A DNA stretch of 64,000 nucleotides from Chloroflexota bacterium (GTDB lineage Bacteria > Chloroflexota > Anaerolineae > SpSt-313): assembly GCA_029553955.1 (NCBI GenBank), contig JAKPJZ010000074.1, forward strand, positions 62,001 to 126,000, read 5' to 3'. This document shows positions 3,372 through 61,695 of the stretch, piece by piece (positions within the stretch are counted from its first letter, which is position 1; each line of letters opens with the position of its first letter). The notes beneath the pieces are model-generated. The model did no database searches. It was not told the origin of the DNA and was given only the letters and a program-made list of their open reading frames with translations. Position numbers and translations under genes: made by a program.

Positions 3372-3453
3372 GGGGGGAATTCTCGGCGGGTTGGCTGTTC
3401 CCTGGCCGCCCGCGGGCGGCCAGGGAACAGCCAACCCGCCGAGAATTCCCCCC
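3372..3453. repeat. Perfect loopless palindrome, 41-bp arms
   Basis: 82 nt, perfectly self-complementary, centred at 3412/3413 on CCCGCGGG. The flanks (about 3330-3540) resemble those of 564-641, so the two are copies of one element family whose arms have changed in step. Confidence 0.9.
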
Positions 3454-3563: not shown

Positions 3564-4409
3564 GTGAAGGAGAGCACAGGGCATTTCGAAGGCGTGAGGG
3601 GCTGCCGGCTGTTCTACCAGACCTGGCTGCCCGAGTGGGCGCCACGGGCGGTGGTGGTGCTGGTGCACGGCGTGGGCGAGCACTGCGGCCGCTACGGGAA
3701 CATGGTCGACGGCCTGGTGGCGGCCGGCTACGCCGTGGCGGGCTATGACCACCGCGGCCACGGGCGCTCGGAGGGGCAGCGCGGCCATGTCGAGGCCTTT
3801 GCGGATTACTGCGACGACCTGGGCCTGTTCCTCAAGCTGGTGGGCGGGCTGCTGCCGGGGCTGCCGGTGTTCCTCTACGGGCACAGCATGGGGTCGCTGA
3901 TCGCGCTCGACTACCTGCTGCGCGACCCGGCGGGCCTGCAGGGCGCGATCATCTCGGGCACGGCGCTCGACCCGGGCGACTCCGCCTCGCCGCTGCAGGT
4001 GCTGCTGGCGAAGGTGCTCTCAGGCATCGCCCCCAAGACCACCATCCGCATGAAGCTCGACGGCAGCACGCTGTCGCGTGACCCCGAGGTGGCCAGGGCG
4101 TACATGGAGGACCCGCTGGATAGCTGGGACCGCTCGGCCCGCTGGGGCACCGAGTTCCTCAAGGCGATTGCGTGGCTCAAGGGCCGCGCCGGCGACGTGC
4201 GGCTGCCGCTGCTCTTCCTGCACGGCGAGTGTGACCCCATCGTGCGCGTTGCGGGCGCCAAGAGCTTTTACGAGCAGATCACCTTCCCCGACAAGGAGAT
4301 CCACATCTACCCCGGCGGCCTGCACGAGCCGCACAACGACATTCAGCATGACGAGGTGCTGCGCGACGTGCTGCAGTGGCTCGACAGGCACCTGCCGCCC
4401 AGCCAGTAG
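3564..4409 (+). CDS. Alpha/beta hydrolase, monoacylglycerol lipase-like
   Basis: A 281-residue serine hydrolase of the Hydrolase_4 / monoacylglycerol lipase type. The oxyanion segment LVHGVGEHCGRY, the nucleophile elbow GHSMGS with Ser108, the acid in HGECDP and the His in GGLHEPHND are all visible and correctly ordered. The usual helical lid lies between about 150 and 210. No signal peptide is seen, so it is probably cytoplasmic. The GTG start at 3564 follows GGGAGG. The stop codon lies in the left arm of the inverted repeat 4406-4489. It converges on the RuBisCO-like gene. Confidence 0.87.
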   Translation: MKESTGHFEGVRGCRLFYQTWLPEWAPRAVVVLVHGVGEHCGRYGNMVDGLVAAGYAVAGYDHRGHGRSEGQRGHVEAFADYCDDLGLFLKLVGGLLPGLPVFLYGHSMGSLIALDYLLRDPAGLQGAIISGTALDPGDSASPLQVLLAKVLSGIAPKTTIRMKLDGSTLSRDPEVARAYMEDPLDSWDRSARWGTEFLKAIAWLKGRAGDVRLPLLFLHGECDPIVRVAGAKSFYEQITFPDKEIHIYPGGLHEPHNDIQHDEVLRDVLQWLDRHLPPSQ

Positions 4410-4489
4410 GGGTTGTGAGACGTCGTGGGGCGCAAGCGGCCCGCCTACGGGCGGGCCGCTTGCGCCCCACGACGTCTCACAACCCCTAC
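4406..4489. repeat. Long inverted repeat between convergent genes, 39-bp arms, 6-nt loop
   Basis: Perfect 39-bp arms (4406-4444 and 4451-4489) around loop CTACGG. The outer end GTAGGGG supplies the TAG stop of the hydrolase; the opposite RuBisCO-like gene stops 5 bp beyond the right arm. The position is what a bidirectional transcription terminator would need, although no T-runs flank it. Confidence 0.9.
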
Positions 4490-7561: not shown

Positions 7562-7611
7562 CCGGGGAGACACCTGACAGGTCGCCCAAGACCTGTCAGG
7601 TGTCTCCCCGG
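7562..7611. repeat. CCTGACAGG-family hairpin, 21-bp arms
   Basis: Perfect 21-bp arms (7562-7582 and 7591-7611) with an 8-nt loop. The core GAGACACCTGACAGGT recurs at 19504, 42188 (interrupted) and 54966, with a shorter relative at 47605, so this is a dispersed palindromic unit. Confidence 0.85.
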
Positions 7612-8491: not shown

Positions 8492-8740
8492 CTGTCACTG
8501 CGAGTAACCCAGGGTCTCGGAACCCTGTGCCCAGCACACAGAACCTTGACCTGTCATTGCGAGTATCCCATGCCGCCGCGCGGCATGTGCAAGCACAGAA
8601 ACTGCGACTGTCATTGCTTCGTCGGCTGCGGCCTCCTCGCAATGACAAACGGGAAGTTTCTCAACAGCCGCAGCGAAGCAGTCTCCTGTCTGGCGTGGAG
8701 ATTGCTTCGCTGTGCTCGCAATGACGGCCTGAAACGTGCG
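8492..8740. repeat. TCATTGCGAG-type repeat cassettes
   Basis: At least four consecutive units begin or end with TGTCATTGCGAG or its complement CTCGCAATGACA, interleaved with AACCCAGGGTCTCGGAACCC and CCATGCCGCCGCGCGGCATG hairpins. The same cassettes recur at 16694 and 52858. Confidence 0.8.
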
Positions 8741-9368: not shown

Positions 9369-9396
9369 CCGTGGCTGCGCGGGCCGGCGATACTGA

Positions 9397-9522
9397 GCTC
9401 GTAGTGCGCACGCCTGTGCGCCGTGAGGCTTGCCGCGGCTGGGCAGTGGCTTCGCGAGCCCTCTTTGCCTGTCCGAATCGGCGCCCTGTGGCGGCTGGCG
9501 CACAGGCGTGCGCACTATGAGC
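9397..9522. repeat. Imperfect inverted-repeat element, about 26-bp arms
   Basis: GCTCGTAGTGCGCACGCCTG at the left is matched by its near complement (GCGCACTATGAGC end) at the right, about 74 bp apart. It lies between the zinc-ribbon gene and the end of the archaellum operon. Size and form suit a miniature element; no target duplication was identified. Confidence 0.6.
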
Positions 9523-9533
9523 TTGCCGCTGAC

Positions 9534-16693: not shown

Positions 16694-16862
16694 CCGTCAT
16701 TGCGAGTGACCCAGGGTCTCCGAACCCTGTGCCCAGCACAGAACCTTGGCCTGTCATTGCGAGGAGGCGGCCGCAGCCGCCGACGAAGCAATCCCCAGGT
16801 TGCGAGCGCAGCGAGGCAACTCCAATGCCCGACGCGGAGACTGCGCTGCGCTCGCAATGACA
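16694..16862. repeat. TCATTGCGAG-type repeat cassettes inside the archaellum operon
   Basis: Units GTCATTGCGAGTGACCCAGGG, TGTCATTGCGAGGAGGCGG...ACGAAGCAATC and CGCTCGCAATGACA fill the arlH-arlF gap, where other gene junctions in the operon are a few nt. The first unit is nearly identical to the one at 8500. Confidence 0.82.
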
Positions 16863-16878
16863 GTGTGAGCGCTCAAGC

Positions 16879-19503: not shown

Positions 19504-19551
19504 TGGGGAGACGCCTGACAGGTCTCCAGAGACCTGTCAGGCGTCTCCCCA
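19504..19551. repeat. CCTGACAGG-family hairpin, 23-bp arms
   Basis: TGGGGAGACGCCTGACAGGT and its complement with a 2-nt loop, between the divergent archaellin and MscS genes. Both arms carry the same A-to-G variant (ACGCC) relative to other copies, so base pairing is kept. Confidence 0.85.
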
Positions 19552-41243: not shown

Positions 41244-41891
41244 TTACTCTCCCCTACCCTCTTCAGGCTTTTCGCGGCTGACGACCTCGACCTCGGTCTC
41301 GGCCTGCGGCGCGGCCTCTTCGATCACTTCCTCTTGCACCGGGATGACCCGGGCCAGGACCTCGCTCGGGTCGCTGAGGATCTGGTACTTGTCGCCGAGC
41401 TGCAGGCTGCCGACGGTGATCTCCTGGTCCATCTCGGCCAGCGTGCTGGCGTCGACCTCGATGTGGCTGATGAGGTCGGCCGGCAAGCACTCGACACCGA
41501 CCGACTCGACGCCGCGGTAGAGCAGGCCGTCGCCGCGCTTGACGACGGGCGAAGTGCCCACAAGGACCACCGGGATCTCGGTACGGATGCGCTCGGTCAT
41601 GACGACTTCAAAAAAGTCCACATGCAGCGGCAGGCGCTTGACCGGCTCGCGCTGCACTTCGCGAAGGAGCACCATGCGGGGCGTTGCGCCGTCGCCCACC
41701 AGTAGGCGGATGAGCTGGTTGCCGCCGACGCGCAGCAGCATGTGGCGCAGCTCGCGCTCGCTGATCTGCACCGCGAGTGGCTCGGTCCGGTGGCCGTAGA
41801 CGACCGCCGGAATCAGCCCGTCGCGGCGCAGGTGCCGCACCTGCTTGCCGGTGACGGTGCGAGGCTGAGCGTTGAGGGTGATCTCCTCCAT
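41244..41891 (-). CDS. rplY: 50S ribosomal protein L25 / general stress protein Ctc
   Basis: 215 residues. The N-terminal L25 domain (TLNAQPRTVTGKQVRHLRRDGLIPAVVYGH) binds 5S rRNA, and the C-terminal TL5/Ctc beta domain (EIPVVLVGTSPVVKRGDGLLYRGVESVGVECLPADLISHIEVD) is complete, ending with an acidic tail. This is the long two-domain form. It has its own promoter and a hairpin-containing leader. Confidence 0.95.
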   Translation of the reverse strand: MEEITLNAQPRTVTGKQVRHLRRDGLIPAVVYGHRTEPLAVQISERELRHMLLRVGGNQLIRLLVGDGATPRMVLLREVQREPVKRLPLHVDFFEVVMTERIRTEIPVVLVGTSPVVKRGDGLLYRGVESVGVECLPADLISHIEVDASTLAEMDQEITVGSLQLGDKYQILSDPSEVLARVIPVQEEVIEEAAPQAETEVEVVSREKPEEGRGE

Positions 41892-41994
41892 GATGACGAC
41901 GTCCTCTCTCCCTAAGACTGGGCAGTCGCCGGCACGTCGCCGCTACTGCCTCTGTTCATGCAAGGGCCGGGTGTCGAGCCGGGCGCACAAAAGA

Positions 41995-42016
41995 GGAGGG
42001 ACCGGCCAGTCCCTCC
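41995..42016 (-). terminator. Terminator-like hairpin in the L25 leader
   Basis: Minus strand GGAGGGAC, loop, GTCCCTCC followed by TCTTTTGTG, lying between the promoter at 42043-42071 and the L25 start, about 105 nt before ATG. As there is no upstream gene to terminate, it may be an attenuator responding to free L25 or to ribosome assembly. Confidence 0.6.
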
Positions 42017-42042
42017 CAGGGTCACCTGCCACAAGACACGAG

Positions 42043-42071
42043 ATTTTAGCGCAGTCGCGCGTTTTCGTCAA
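42043..42071 (-). promoter_or_regulatory. Promoter of rplY
   Basis: Minus strand TTGACG and TAAAAT with 17-nt spacing; the start would be near 42036, giving a leader of about 145 nt. Confidence 0.75.
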
Positions 42072-42224
42072 GTTGCCAGGTCGTCCCGCTGTACGCCTGC
42101 CGATGCCGCCGCCTCTTGGGGCAGCAAGAAGCGTGCCAGTTGGGGAGAAGACACGCCCGAGGTGCATCACCCGAGCCTTGGGCGGTGCCGGGGAGACACC
42201 TGACAGGTTCTTGAAAACCTGTCA

Positions 42225-42527
42225 CACCGATTTCCATGGCAGGAAGGCGATTGGCAACAACTCCGGCAGAGGCCTGCCCATGCCGCGGCTTGGCCCCCCC
42301 TACCGTTCCCCCGTCGCGGGGGAATTGGGCTGTCTTCCGCGGCACTAGATCGCTCGCTTGCCGTTTCTTGGCTGCACAGGATGCGGTAGGGCGACCCAAT
42401 TCCCCCGCGACGGGGGAACGGTAGGGGGGCACCCTACAGCAGGAGAAACCGTCTGTCAGCCGCGGCGCGAGCTGGACCGAGTTATTGCCAGAGACCTGGC
42501 GCTGACCACCCGCCAGGGAAATAGGTG
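42225..42527. mobile_element. 303-bp miniature inverted-repeat element
   Basis: It is bounded by a 5-bp direct repeat TGTCA and has terminal inverted repeats CACCGATTTCC / GGAAATAGGTG (one mismatch). It has no coding capacity. Inside are two 35-bp perfect inverted arms (42295-42329 and 42395-42429) carrying TACCGTTCCCCCGTCGCGGG. It would need a transposase in trans. Confidence 0.8.
42295..42429. repeat. Internal inverted repeat of the element, 35-bp arms
   Basis: Perfect arms around 65 bp; each arm itself holds the palindrome CCCCCGTCGCGGGGG, so a nested stem is possible. Confidence 0.8.
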
Positions 42528-42612
42528 TGTCAGGTGTCTCCCCGGCACCGCTCTCCGGTGCTACGAACGAGGGTCGCCGACGCTTTGGGATATGCCCGCT
42601 GCGCCGGGGCCG

Positions 42613-42641
42613 TTGGCAAGGCGGCGGCGCCGGCGTATAAT
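42613..42641 (+). promoter_or_regulatory. Promoter of the LOG-family gene
   Basis: TTGGCA and TATAAT with 17-nt spacing, 86 bp before the start codon. Confidence 0.75.
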
Positions 42642-42727
42642 GACCGTCTCAGAAGTGAGGCCGAAGTGAAAGCCTTGGCGTACGATTGAGGCGATGGTGC
42701 TTCCTCCAATAGAAGGGTCGGGTAATC

Positions 42728-43303
42728 TTGTCTGTTTCACATCCCAGGGTCATCTCCGTCTTTGGCAGCGCGACGATTGCGCCCGGCAGCGACGAGTATG
42801 GGCGCGCCGAGCGGCTGGGCCGGTTCTTGGCCGGGGCCGGCTGGGTGGTGATGACCGGCGGCTTTGATGGGGCCATGGCGGCCTGTTGCCGCGGCGCCCG
42901 GGAGGCGGGCGGGCACACCGTCGGGGTGACCCTCAGGGCCTGGAACCGCCCGGCCAACGCCTGGGTGTGCGAGGAGCGGCCCCAGGCGACGTACCAGGAG
43001 CGGTTGCTGTACATGGCGACGATGGCCGATGGCTATGTGGCCGTCGACGGCGGCATCGGCACCCTGGGGGAATTGGCGCTCGTCTGGAGCCTGCTGGAGA
43101 CGCGCAGCCTGCCGCCGCGGCCGCTAGTGGCCGTGGGCCGGCGCTGGCGGCGGCTGTTCGACGTGTTTGCAGAAGAACTGGTCTTGAGGCGCGAGCACCT
43201 GGCGCTGGTGAATGTGGTGGCCTCGCCGGAGGAGGCGGTGCCGGTGCTAGGGCAGGGTTTCGTGGGCGCTGAGGCCCCGAATGGCGCGAATTCACACGGA
43301 TAG
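42728..43303 (+). CDS. LOG-family protein (TIGR00725-like)
   Basis: 191 residues of the lysine-decarboxylase-like Rossmann family: ISVFGSATIAPG at the N-terminus, VVMTGGFDGAMAACCRGAREAGGHTVGV, and ADGYVAVDGGIGTLGELALVWSLLE, which is the PGGxGTxxE-type motif in the variant form DGGIGTLGE. Related proteins release cytokinin bases by phosphoribohydrolase action; this branch is uncharacterised. The start is TTG 42728 after GAAGGG; no other start is better placed. Confidence 0.82.
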   Translation: MSVSHPRVISVFGSATIAPGSDEYGRAERLGRFLAGAGWVVMTGGFDGAMAACCRGAREAGGHTVGVTLRAWNRPANAWVCEERPQATYQERLLYMATMADGYVAVDGGIGTLGELALVWSLLETRSLPPRPLVAVGRRWRRLFDVFAEELVLRREHLALVNVVASPEEAVPVLGQGFVGAEAPNGANSHG

Positions 43304-43372
43304 GGCCACGCGGGCAGGAGATTGCTTCGCTGTGCTCGCGATGAAGGCACGAACAGGTACGTGGAGGTGACG

Positions 43373-47604: not shown

Positions 47605-47644
47605 GGCAAACCTGACAGGTCCGCGGAGACCTGTCAGGTTTGCC
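47605..47644. repeat. CCTGACAGG-family hairpin, 17-bp arms
   Basis: GGCAAACCTGACAGGTC and its complement around CGCGGA, 32 bp after the ssb stop. A shorter member of the family with a different outer stem. Confidence 0.85.
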
Positions 47645-52481: not shown

Positions 52482-52734
52482 TCTGTGTTGAGAGACTTCC
52501 CGTCTGTCATTGCGAGAACCCAGGGTTGCCGCAACCCTGCGCCAGGCGGATGACGTCGCACTGTAGCCGCGGCATCGTGCCGCGCGGGAGAGTCCCACGG
52601 CAACATGCCGCGCCTTCAGTCCGGCGGCCTCCTGATTTGAAAATGCGCGCCAACCCGCAGCCCCTTGTGGGCGTTTTCGTGCTACGTTGTGCCCAATCGG
52701 GCATGGGCGACTGATCTGAAAATAGGGCTCCGAT

Positions 52735-52806
52735 TCACCGCAGAGAGCGCCTCGTGCAAGCACGGGGGACGCAGAGGAATGAGTTATCTCTGCGTCCTCT
52801 GCGGTG
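52735..52806. repeat. CACCGCAGAG inverted repeat
   Basis: CACCGCAGAG at the left and CTCTGCGTCCTCTGCGGTG at the right with GGACGCAGAG between them. The left end matches CCACCGCAGAGGCGCGGAG at 20723. Confidence 0.65.
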
Positions 52807-52857
52807 CAAGGCCCCGTTTTCATCGCTTGTGGTGCCCCTGGGGGCATGTCGTCTGCT

Positions 52858-53130
52858 CAGAGACTTGGGCTTGTCATTGCGAGCCGCAGCGAAGCAATCT
52901 CCACGTCGGGCATTGGGGATTGCTTCGTCGGCTGCGGCCTCCTCGCAATGACAGTCGCAGTCTCTGCTTGCACAGGCTGCACCACGACCTGGGATACTCG
53001 CAATGACAGTCGTCGTTTCTGTGCTTGCACAGGCTGCGCCGCGGCCTGGGGTACTCGCAATGACAGTCGCAGTTATTGTGCTTGCCCATGCCGCCGCGCG
53101 GCATGGGATACTCGCAATGACAGGCTGAGT
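52858..53130. repeat. TCATTGCGAG-type repeat array
   Basis: About five units joined head to tail, alternating CTCGCAATGACAGTCGCAGT-like ends with CTTGCACAGGCTGCGCCGCGGCCTGGG hairpins at a spacing near 57 bp. The last ends 30 bp before the amine-oxidase ATG. Confidence 0.82.
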
Positions 53131-53163
53131 AGCTGCATCGGTTTGAGGCCAAGCCTCTCTAGA

Positions 53164-54450: not shown

Positions 54451-54480
54451 TGTCATTGCTTCGCTGCGCTCGCAATGGCA
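54451..54480. repeat. TCATTGCGAG-type unit
   Basis: GTCATTGCTTCGCTGCGCTC and CGCAATGGC, a degenerate single hairpin between convergent genes. Confidence 0.65.
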
Positions 54481-54529
54481 TGCCGGCCACTGGTGGCGGA
54501 CGTCCTCACCAGCTCGAGGCGAAGCTCTG

Positions 54530-54965: not shown

Positions 54966-55029
54966 ACCGTTTGCGGGGAGACACCTGACAGGTCTCCGAA
55001 GACCTGTCAGGTGTCTCCCCGCAAACGGT
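54966..55029. repeat. CCTGACAGG-family hairpin, 29-bp arms
   Basis: Perfect arms 54966-54994 and 55001-55029 (ACCGTTTGCGGGGAGACACC end) around TCCGAA. The longest member of the family in this window, extended by ACCGTTTGC. Confidence 0.88.
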
Positions 55030-55438: not shown

Positions 55439-57280
55439 ATGTGTGGCATCGTGGGCTATGTGGGCGGCCGCGAGGCTGCCTCCATCGTCGTCAACGGCCT
55501 CAGCCGCCTCGCGTACCGCGGCTACGACTCTGCCGGGCTGGCGGTCGTCGGTCCCGCAGGGCTGGCGTTGCGCCGCTCGGTGGGCAAGCTCGACAACCTC
55601 TCGCACCTCTTGCAGCAGAACCCCGCGCCCGGTTCCACCGGCATCGGCCATACCCGCTGGGCCACTCACGGCGGCGTCACCGAGGCCAACACCCACCCGC
55701 ACACCGACTGCGCCGGCCAGGTCGTTGTGATCCAGAACGGCATCGTCGAGAACTACCTGGAGCTGAAGCAGGCGCTGCGCGCCCAAGGCCACGAGTTCCG
55801 CTCACAGACCGATACCGAGGTCATCGCCCACCTGGTCGAAAAGTACCTGGCCGGCGGCGCCGACCTGCCCGAGGCGGTGCGCCTGGCGCTGGCGCAGCTC
55901 AAGGGCGCCAACGCCGTCGTCGCGCTGGCGGCGCGCTGGCCCGACCAGATTGTGGCCGCGCGGCTGGGCAACGCCGGCGGCGTGACGGTGGGCCTGGGCG
56001 ACGGCGAGACCCTGGTGGCCTCCGACATGCCGGCCATCCTCGAACACACGCAGCGGGTCGCCTTTCTCGGTGACCGCGAGATGGCGGTCATCCGTCGCGA
56101 GGGTGCGCGCTTCTATGGCCTCGACGGCGAGCCGCTTGTCAAGCGGACCGAGACCGTGGCCTGGGACCCTGTCTCGGCGGCGCGTGGGCGCTACAAGCAC
56201 TTTATGCAGAAAGAGATCTATGAGCAGCCGCGCTCCGTGACCGACGCCATTCGTGGCCGGGTCGACTTTGAGGCGGCCGAGGTGCGGCTCGAGGGCCTGC
56301 CCTTCAGCGCCGAGCGGCTGAGGCGCGTGCGGCGCATCCACACCGTGGCCTGCGGCACGGCCTGGCACGCCGGGCTGCTGGGCAAGTTTATGATCGAACA
56401 CCTGGCGCGCCTGCCGGTGGAGGTGGACTATGGCTCCGAGTTCCGCTACCGCGACCCGCTGATCGACCCCGACGACCTGGTGCTCGTCATCACCCAGTCG
56501 GGCGAGACGGTGGATACGCTGGCGGCGATGGAGGAAGCGCGGCGCATGCACGCCGCGACCATCTCTATCGTCAACGCCGTTGGCAGCCAGGCCGCGCGCC
56601 TGGCCGACGGCGTGGTCTACCTCAACGCCGGGCCCGAAATCGGCGTGGCCTCCACCAAAGCCTTCACTTCGATGCTGGTGGCGCAGTACCTGCTGGCCGT
56701 CTACCTGGGCCAGGCGCGGGGCACGCTGGGCCGCGCGGTGCGCGCGGGGCTGCTGCAGAGCCTGGCCAAGCTGCCCAACCTGGTGGGCCAGGTGCTCGCG
56801 GGCAGCGGCCTGTACCAGGAGCTGGCGCAGCGCTACCAGCACTGCACCGACTCCCTCTTCCTCGGCCGCGGCATCAACTACCCGGTGGCGCTGGAGGGGG
56901 CGCTCAAGCTCAAAGAGATCTCCTACATCCACGCCGAAGGCTACCCGGCGGGCGAGATGAAGCATGGCCCCATCGCCTTGATCGACGAGGCCATGCCGGT
57001 AGTGGCCATCGTGGCCCGCGACCACGTGCGCGACAAGATGCTCTCCAACGTCGAGCAGGTCAAGGCGCGTGGCGGGGTGGTCATCGCCGTGGCCGACGCC
57101 GCGGACGAAGAGGTCGCCGCCAAGGCCGACCACGTGCTGCCGGTGCCGCACCTCTCGCCGCTCTTGGCGCCGGTGCTGAACGTGCTGCCGCTGCAGCTCT
57201 TGGCGTACCACGTCGCCGTGCGTCGCGGCTGCGACGTGGACCAGCCGCGCAACCTGGCCAAGAGCGTTACTGTAGAGTAG
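55439..57280 (+). CDS. glmS: Glutamine--fructose-6-phosphate aminotransferase (isomerizing)
   Basis: 613 residues. The class II glutaminase domain starts with catalytic Cys2 (MCGIVGYVGG), and HTRWATHGGVTEANTHPH is intact. Two SIS domains follow (TVACGTAWHAGLLGKFMIE, ITQSGETVDTLAAMEEA, and FLGRGINYPVALEGALKLKEISYIHAEGYPAGEMKHGPIALID), ending LAKSVTVE. It makes glucosamine 6-phosphate for cell wall synthesis. Control is by the ribozyme in its leader. ATG 55439 follows AGGAGGGG; the longer track ORF runs through the ribozyme. The stop lies in the palindrome 57277-57368. Confidence 0.97.
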   Translation: MCGIVGYVGGREAASIVVNGLSRLAYRGYDSAGLAVVGPAGLALRRSVGKLDNLSHLLQQNPAPGSTGIGHTRWATHGGVTEANTHPHTDCAGQVVVIQNGIVENYLELKQALRAQGHEFRSQTDTEVIAHLVEKYLAGGADLPEAVRLALAQLKGANAVVALAARWPDQIVAARLGNAGGVTVGLGDGETLVASDMPAILEHTQRVAFLGDREMAVIRREGARFYGLDGEPLVKRTETVAWDPVSAARGRYKHFMQKEIYEQPRSVTDAIRGRVDFEAAEVRLEGLPFSAERLRRVRRIHTVACGTAWHAGLLGKFMIEHLARLPVEVDYGSEFRYRDPLIDPDDLVLVITQSGETVDTLAAMEEARRMHAATISIVNAVGSQAARLADGVVYLNAGPEIGVASTKAFTSMLVAQYLLAVYLGQARGTLGRAVRAGLLQSLAKLPNLVGQVLAGSGLYQELAQRYQHCTDSLFLGRGINYPVALEGALKLKEISYIHAEGYPAGEMKHGPIALIDEAMPVVAIVARDHVRDKMLSNVEQVKARGGVVIAVADAADEEVAAKADHVLPVPHLSPLLAPVLNVLPLQLLAYHVAVRRGCDVDQPRNLAKSVTVE

Positions 57281-57368
57281 GGTTCTCTTGGAAACGAGGA
57301 GAGGGTGCGCTCGCGCCTGCCGCGGCAGGCGCGAGCGCACCCTCTCCTCGTTTCCAAGAGAACCCTAC
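57277..57368. repeat. Perfect loopless palindrome shared by two convergent stops, 46-bp arms
   Basis: 92 nt, self-complementary without spacer, centred at 57322/57323. Its ends read GTAGGG...CCCTAC; the left TAG is the glmS stop and the right one, on the other strand, is the stop of the FGGY kinase. It is a candidate bidirectional terminator. Confidence 0.93.
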
Positions 57369-58951: not shown

Positions 58952-59282
58952 AGTCCCCTCCGAACCTACGACCGTCCAGACAGCAGCAGAGCAGCAGAGC
59001 AGAGCAGCAGAGGCGGCTCCCATGCCGCCGGCTCAGTGGCCCGCACCCTACTATTGGGCGCAGGGGTGCCTCGAAGGGGCGGGCGTCAGTGCGCCCGGCG
59101 CTATCCGGGCTAGGGGTTTTGGAGGTTGTCCGGCGCCGTTGGCCGGCCCGCCCGCGGGCGGGCCGGCCAACGGCGCCGGACAACCTCCAAAACCCCACCA
59201 AAAGGGCTTGTTCCGGTTCCGTGCGAAGCGCAGAGCCCGGATACTGCCCAGGGTTGAGACACAACCAGGCTTGCAGATGCGT
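58952..59282. other. Intergenic region with palindromic element
   Basis: No gene is supported. The palindrome 59113-59196 is surrounded by a CTATCCGGGCT segment on the left and GAAGCGCAGAGCCCGGATA on the right, reverse-oriented matches to the flanks of the element at 3372-3453. Confidence 0.7.
59113..59196. repeat. Perfect loopless palindrome, 42-bp arms
   Basis: 84 nt, self-complementary, centred on CCCGCGGG at 59154/59155; ends GGGGTTTTGGAGG. Arms differ in sequence from the copies at 564 and 3372, but the centre and the outside flanks are related. It is inside the presumed operon, between the aminotransferase and the kinase. Confidence 0.92.
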
Positions 59283-61556: not shown

Positions 61557-61590
61557 ACTGTCATTGCTTCGCTGCGCTCGCAATGACAGT
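61557..61590. repeat. TCATTGCGAG-type hairpin
   Basis: ACTGTCATTGC and GCAATGACAGT enclose TTCGCTGCGCTC. A complete single unit of the family directly beside the divergent promoters. Confidence 0.82.
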
Positions 61591-61695
61591 CTGGGGACCA
61601 AATGCTTCCAGTCAAATCCTGCGTTACGCGGATACGTTCAGGAAGCGTGCTCCCGTCGCCTACAATCGACCTGGACGTATCTGGACGGGGTATGA

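Follow-up and report, generated by a model that had tools for sequence, protein, structure and literature searches.

Several insertion sequences (ISs), namely ISPsy8, ISPa11, ISPpu9/10, ISRm22 and ISRm19, stand in a type 1 association with REP palindromes, which serve as their targets (Tobes and Pareja 2006, PMC1525189). ISs whose insertions all (100%) hit REPs, always at the same point, have already been described. In ISPsy8 and ISRm22 this point is the REP symmetry axis, and the mixed direct repeats of REP-targeting ISs have been attributed to recombination between copies (PMC1525189). The reverse of the situation analysed below, in which IS1111 inserts into the REP of a MITE, appears in the portion of the MITE review on which we draw here (PMC10969869). 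A search of the literature for the repeat analysed below found no paper on it.

The window, i.e. the whole stretch of 64,000 nucleotides analysed, contains a 303-bp insert at positions 42225-42527, which is bordered by TGTCA at 42220-42224 and again at 42528-42532. The sequence reads GCGGTGCCGGGGAGACACCTGACAGGTT-CTTGAA-AACCTGTCA / CACCGATTTCC...GGAAATAGGTG / TGTCAGGTGTCTCCCCGGCACCGC, with the insert between the slashes. The initial annotation was correct in these coordinates, in the length and in the 5-bp duplication. It had also proposed that excision restores a hairpin, and removal of 42225-42527 together with one TGTCA does rebuild one, whose arms pair perfectly over 28 bp and enclose a loop of 6 nt. 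The left arm (42182-42209, 28 bp) has the inner end ACCTGACAGGTT. The right arm is split into an inner part at 42216-42224, whose last 5 bases are the left duplication copy, and an outer part at 42533-42551, directly behind the right duplication copy; the hairpin parts, the duplication and the element as a whole carry no strand assignment. Within the element, the terminal inverted repeats lie at 42225-42243 (plus strand) and 42509-42527 (minus strand) and read CACCGATTTCCATGGCAGG and CACCTATTTCCCTGGCGGG. They are followed inwards by the left inner terminal motif TGGCAACAACTC at +28 (42252-42263, plus strand), a candidate transposase-binding site, and the right inner motif TGGCAATAACTC at +38 (42479-42490, minus strand). 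The neighbours are a ribosomal L25 gene on the minus strand and a SLOG/lysine-decarboxylase-like gene on the plus strand. The RNA fold of the 303-mer has z = -9.3 relative to shuffles; this is due to the palindromes nested in it and is no evidence for an RNA function. Rfam covariance models at gathering thresholds gave no match in 41700-43000, and the element had no match in a plasmid collection.

Further copies with the same ends, for which the initial annotation had proposed to look, are present elsewhere in the 5.37-Mb draft genome. With at most 2 mismatches the end pattern occurs at 144 ends, as opposed to 0 for the reversed control pattern, and the inner 22-mer was found 0 times in 100 shuffles; chance is therefore excluded. 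A blast search of this genome gave more than 40 matching loci, and 70 paired copies, the window copy among them, could be assembled from fetched stretches, so that the family has at least 70 members. Nearly all of them are 119-336 bp long and fall into steps of 126, about 152-176, 211-216, 246-257, 301-313 and 328-336 bp with common ends, whereas a single locus of 567 bp consists of two elements joined in a nested fashion. Apart from this nested case, no copy exceeds about 336 bp; the copies are built of palindromic modules and contain no transposase gene. The 11-bp terminal repeats originally reported are identical at 10 of 11 positions in the window copy, but the family shows a terminal repeat of about 19 bp, CASCRATTTCCMTGGCRGG, with the ends CASCRATTTCC, plus an inner motif. 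This TGGCAAAAACTC-like motif is found at 132 of 140 ends, compared with 5% in shuffled controls, and mostly at +28 or +38; the element consequently has a distinguishable left and right end. Copies match their best counterpart with a median identity of 91%, and the most similar pair reaches 98%, so that most of the movement is old. Being short and multi-copy, with terminal inverted repeats, a target-site duplication and no transposase gene of its own, the element has the properties of a MITE.

RCCTGWCA, with at most 1 mismatch, precedes 136 of the 141 good ends (those with at most 2 mismatches). Essentially all copies thus occupy a fixed position in a palindromic repeat, as in the type 1 association of ISs with REPs. 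The full motif ACCTGWCAGGT is nearly confined to hairpins of the form ACCTGACAGGT-loop-ACCTGTCAGGT. We counted 41 sites in 266 kb, a sample whose site density is biased because it includes hairpin-rich stretches; paired hairpins contain 39 of these, and the two others are the interrupted window site and a solitary one. Since the motif is hardly ever found outside the two stem arms of the hairpin, nearly every copy of the element interrupts a hairpin arm. By strict standards 96 intact hairpins are present in the genome. Four intact ones are located in the window (7562-7611, 19504-19551, 47605-47644 and 54966-55029), and their outer arms are perfect but locus-specific.

As the arms differ at W, with TGACA in the left arm and TGTCA in the right, this base tells which arm was hit. 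Where the hairpin is retained only on the left, the flanks are T|T in 11 copies and T|A in 2; where it is retained only on the right, they are A|A in 10/10. Of 23 single-arm insertions, 21 therefore have the same W base in both flanks (p = 7e-5), and this concordance makes the 5-bp duplication real. The window copy is T|T, that is, a right-arm insertion. Two off-target copies, L088 (TATCT/TGTCT) and L090 (TGTTA/TGTCA), are also consistent with 5 bp. With a target so palindromic, the exact 5-bp border rests on the W base and on these two copies.

The near constancy of the flanks would also fit a reading in which the terminal repeats are longer, with ACCTGWCA as their outer part, and the hairpins derive from the element by internal deletion, and so would the copies without a loop described below, in which the inverted repeats continue unbroken across the border. 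However, the W pattern tracks the arm hit (21/23), the outer arms vary among loci while the ends do not, L088 and L090 lack the flank, and 11 other genomes have hairpins without the element. This reading is already contradicted and we give it hardly any credence. Judged from the sequence, the flanking ACCTGTCA...TGTCAGGT is best explained as belonging to the target hairpin and not to the element. The order of events first proposed (hairpin first, insert second), the stem arm as the target and the character of the insert as a non-autonomous mobile element are all supported by about 70 copies.

A second class of copies, about as frequent as the single-arm insertions, has no loop. In 22 of them CCTGACA|element|TGTCAGG lies between outer arms that are complementary to each other, and A|T flanks outnumber T|A flanks by 22 to 1 (p = 6e-6). 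One locus, L014, is the converse form with a loop on both sides, and three loci (L026, L091 and L150) contain more than one element, the second being truncated in L091 and L150. Recombination between two insertions offers the simplest explanation for the loopless copies: elements in both arms of one hairpin would recombine unequally and the loop would be deleted. Such an exchange predicts two products, and would account in this way for both the loopless forms and L014; the multi-element loci are plausible intermediates of loop loss. Recombination between copies has likewise been invoked for ISRm22 (PMC1525189). What speaks against this best explanation is the high share of loopless copies, which equal the single-arm ones in frequency and would call for frequent double insertion. 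An origin of the A|T copies by insertion into single loopless palindromes was rejected, as such sites are nearly absent and T|A would then be equally common, in contrast to the 22 to 1 observed.

Alternatively, the transposase could read the extruded hairpin (cruciform) and not the linear sequence. Hairpins of differing sequence would then be usable (ACCTGWCAGGT here, AATTGWCAATT in a cousin), and the loopless copies would be direct products of a one-step swap of the hairpin tip for the element. All 22 are indeed exact replacements of GGT-loop-ACC by the element and, lone ACCTGWCAGGT sites being almost absent, the data do not set recognition of the linear sequence apart from that of the hairpin. 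A search with half-hairpins furthermore revealed a cousin, CACTGATTTCCCT, at ACCTGTCA in G040, a genome from another family of the class, where the target is the same. A second G040 cousin, which has the inner motif TGGCAAGTATTC in common, adjoins a hairpin with a different core, AATTGTCA, so that both are found beside hairpins. The AATTGTCA case is nevertheless one copy, single-arm insertions with an ordinary duplication are equally frequent, and recombination between two insertions also accounts for the loopless class; we therefore regard recognition of the extruded form as unlikely. An open frame of 37 codons that extends into the G040 end was considered as a transposase C-terminus. It gave no significant homologue in tblastn, the piece holding it has an inner inverted repeat like other MITEs, and this reading was dropped.

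What we observe directly are the ends, the 5-bp duplication, the choice of target and the number of copies. Taken together, and with the cousin ends at the same target in G040, we are highly confident that they represent a MITE family with ends of about 19 bp and a 5-bp duplication, which is presumably moved in trans and prefers the TGWCA-centred palindrome of a dispersed hairpin. The enzyme would be a cut-and-paste transposase, probably of the DDE type, that favours palindromes centred on TGWCA, here ACCTGWCAGGT, and it may now be absent, unbinned or lost. The initial annotation had suggested looking for a transposase with such ends. Searches of the draft genome, from which repeats may be unbinned, with DDE_Tnp_1, IS1634, Y1 (the families covered) and the end pattern found neither a linked nor an autonomous one; the DDE_Tnp_1 and IS1634 searches yielded one ORF, on contig C118, which is not linked to element ends. 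Three Y1_Tnp matches are present in the genome, which would be in line with a REPIN-like repeat that owes its mobility to a Y1 (RAYT) transposase, as would the palindromic nature of the copies, their depletion from ORFs and their tandem or convergent contexts, all of which are REP-like (PMC3733652). Against this, the element has a 5-bp duplication and its ends carry neither a GTAG nor a CGTC tag, making such an origin very improbable for the element itself. To our knowledge, Y1 enzymes make no target duplication. The inner module could have been moved by a Y1 (RAYT) enzyme.

The inner 35-bp inverted repeat noted initially is exact (42295-42329, plus strand, and 42395-42429, minus strand). It forms a separate nested palindromic module and is not part of the mobile ends. 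The 212-bp form has one simple inner palindrome, CCCCCCTACCGTTCCCCCG-TCG-CGGGGGAACGGTAGGGGGG, and the 303-bp form has two such hairpins around a further 65 bp. The same architecture, GACCCCCTACCGTTCCCCCG...CGGGGGAATAGG...CGGTGGGGGGTC, makes up tandem arrays outside any such element in G001 and G002, two genomes of the same family. These arrays (L062-L067) are intergenic; their double-hairpin unit (GACCCCCTACCGTTCCCCCG...) of ~110-140 bp is a relative of the module inside the window element. The 35-bp repeat is a second palindromic module that also spreads by itself in related genomes, and the window locus is a hairpin within an element within a hairpin. A second subfamily (246-257 bp) has another inner palindrome, AGCTCGTAGTGCGCACGCCTGTGCGC. 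The same module is found in the window at 9396-9523 as an inverted repeat with 74 bp between its arms and without recognisable element ends. In two copies (L097, 5471-5677, and L100, 1480-2093), an arm of AGCTCGTAGTGCGCACGCCTGTGCGC is broken by a sequence beginning with ATTGTGTAGGTTTTTGTT, which is probably a further insertion sequence with hairpins among its targets.

Among 60 genomes of class-level relatives searched, the target hairpin is present in 11 further ones, with 28 occurrences in G049, and absent from G001 and G002. The element ends were found as a family only in the source genome among those searched. No orthologous empty site was found, the nearest genomes available for comparison belonging to another genus and lacking the hairpin. 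When GTDB representatives were scanned for the exact terminal repeat, 7 isolated matches appeared, about the chance number by our own estimate. A match on a viral contig (L229), among phage genes and without a second end, was judged to be chance. By greedy, crude ORF calling, 19 of the 53 copies with enough flank (36%) are inside an ORF, compared with 86% of random points; the copies outside, by the same crude calling, lie between tandem (18), convergent (15) or divergent (1) ORFs.

Other repeats occur in the same window. Long perfect palindromes with arms of 37-49 bp are found at 562-641, 2270-2349, 3372-3453, 4406-4489, 57277-57368 and 59113-59196, several with the outer ends GTAGGG...CCCTAC, and the genome seems to be rich in several perfect-palindrome families. 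A dispersed palindromic repeat of the type GTCATTGCGAG...CGCAATGAC is present at 8494-8647, 16696-16869, 43317-43353, 52506-53131, 54451-54487 and 61559-61595, in places as tandem 57-bp units.

At about 70 independent loci in one genome, the family shows how a non-autonomous element can rely nearly completely on a different repeat family for its landing sites, and single-arm, double and recombined forms occur side by side. The strong depletion from ORFs and the mostly tandem and convergent contexts suggest that hairpin targeting may be a safe-haven strategy, and from the nesting the layers can be ordered: hairpin, element, inner palindrome.

As with the REP-targeting ISs, a palindromic repeat is interrupted by (nearly) every copy at one fixed point, and a short direct repeat is present (PMC1525189). 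Those ISs, however, are autonomous and have 4-9 copies each where numbers are given, whereas this element is non-autonomous with at least 70 copies, and its target is a hairpin of another family in which both arms are used (PMC1525189). In size, terminal repeats, target duplication, lack of a transposase gene, high copy number and size variants it resembles Chunjie, QMITE and MITEAba12 as covered in the portion of the review considered here; it differs from them, as portrayed there, in its near-absolute preference for a palindromic repeat and its stepwise nested inner palindromes (PMC10969869). The target hairpin and the inner module resemble the dispersed intergenic palindromes REP, BIME and REPIN, and the inner module shares with these the paired units in opposite orientation; unlike them, the element makes a 5-bp duplication and has no GTAG or CGTC tag (PMC3733652, PMC3116915). 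By analogy, the family is best read as a non-autonomous counterpart of the REP-targeting ISs, and with its strictness, its numbers and its nesting it ranks as a good variant of described kinds and not as a new category.
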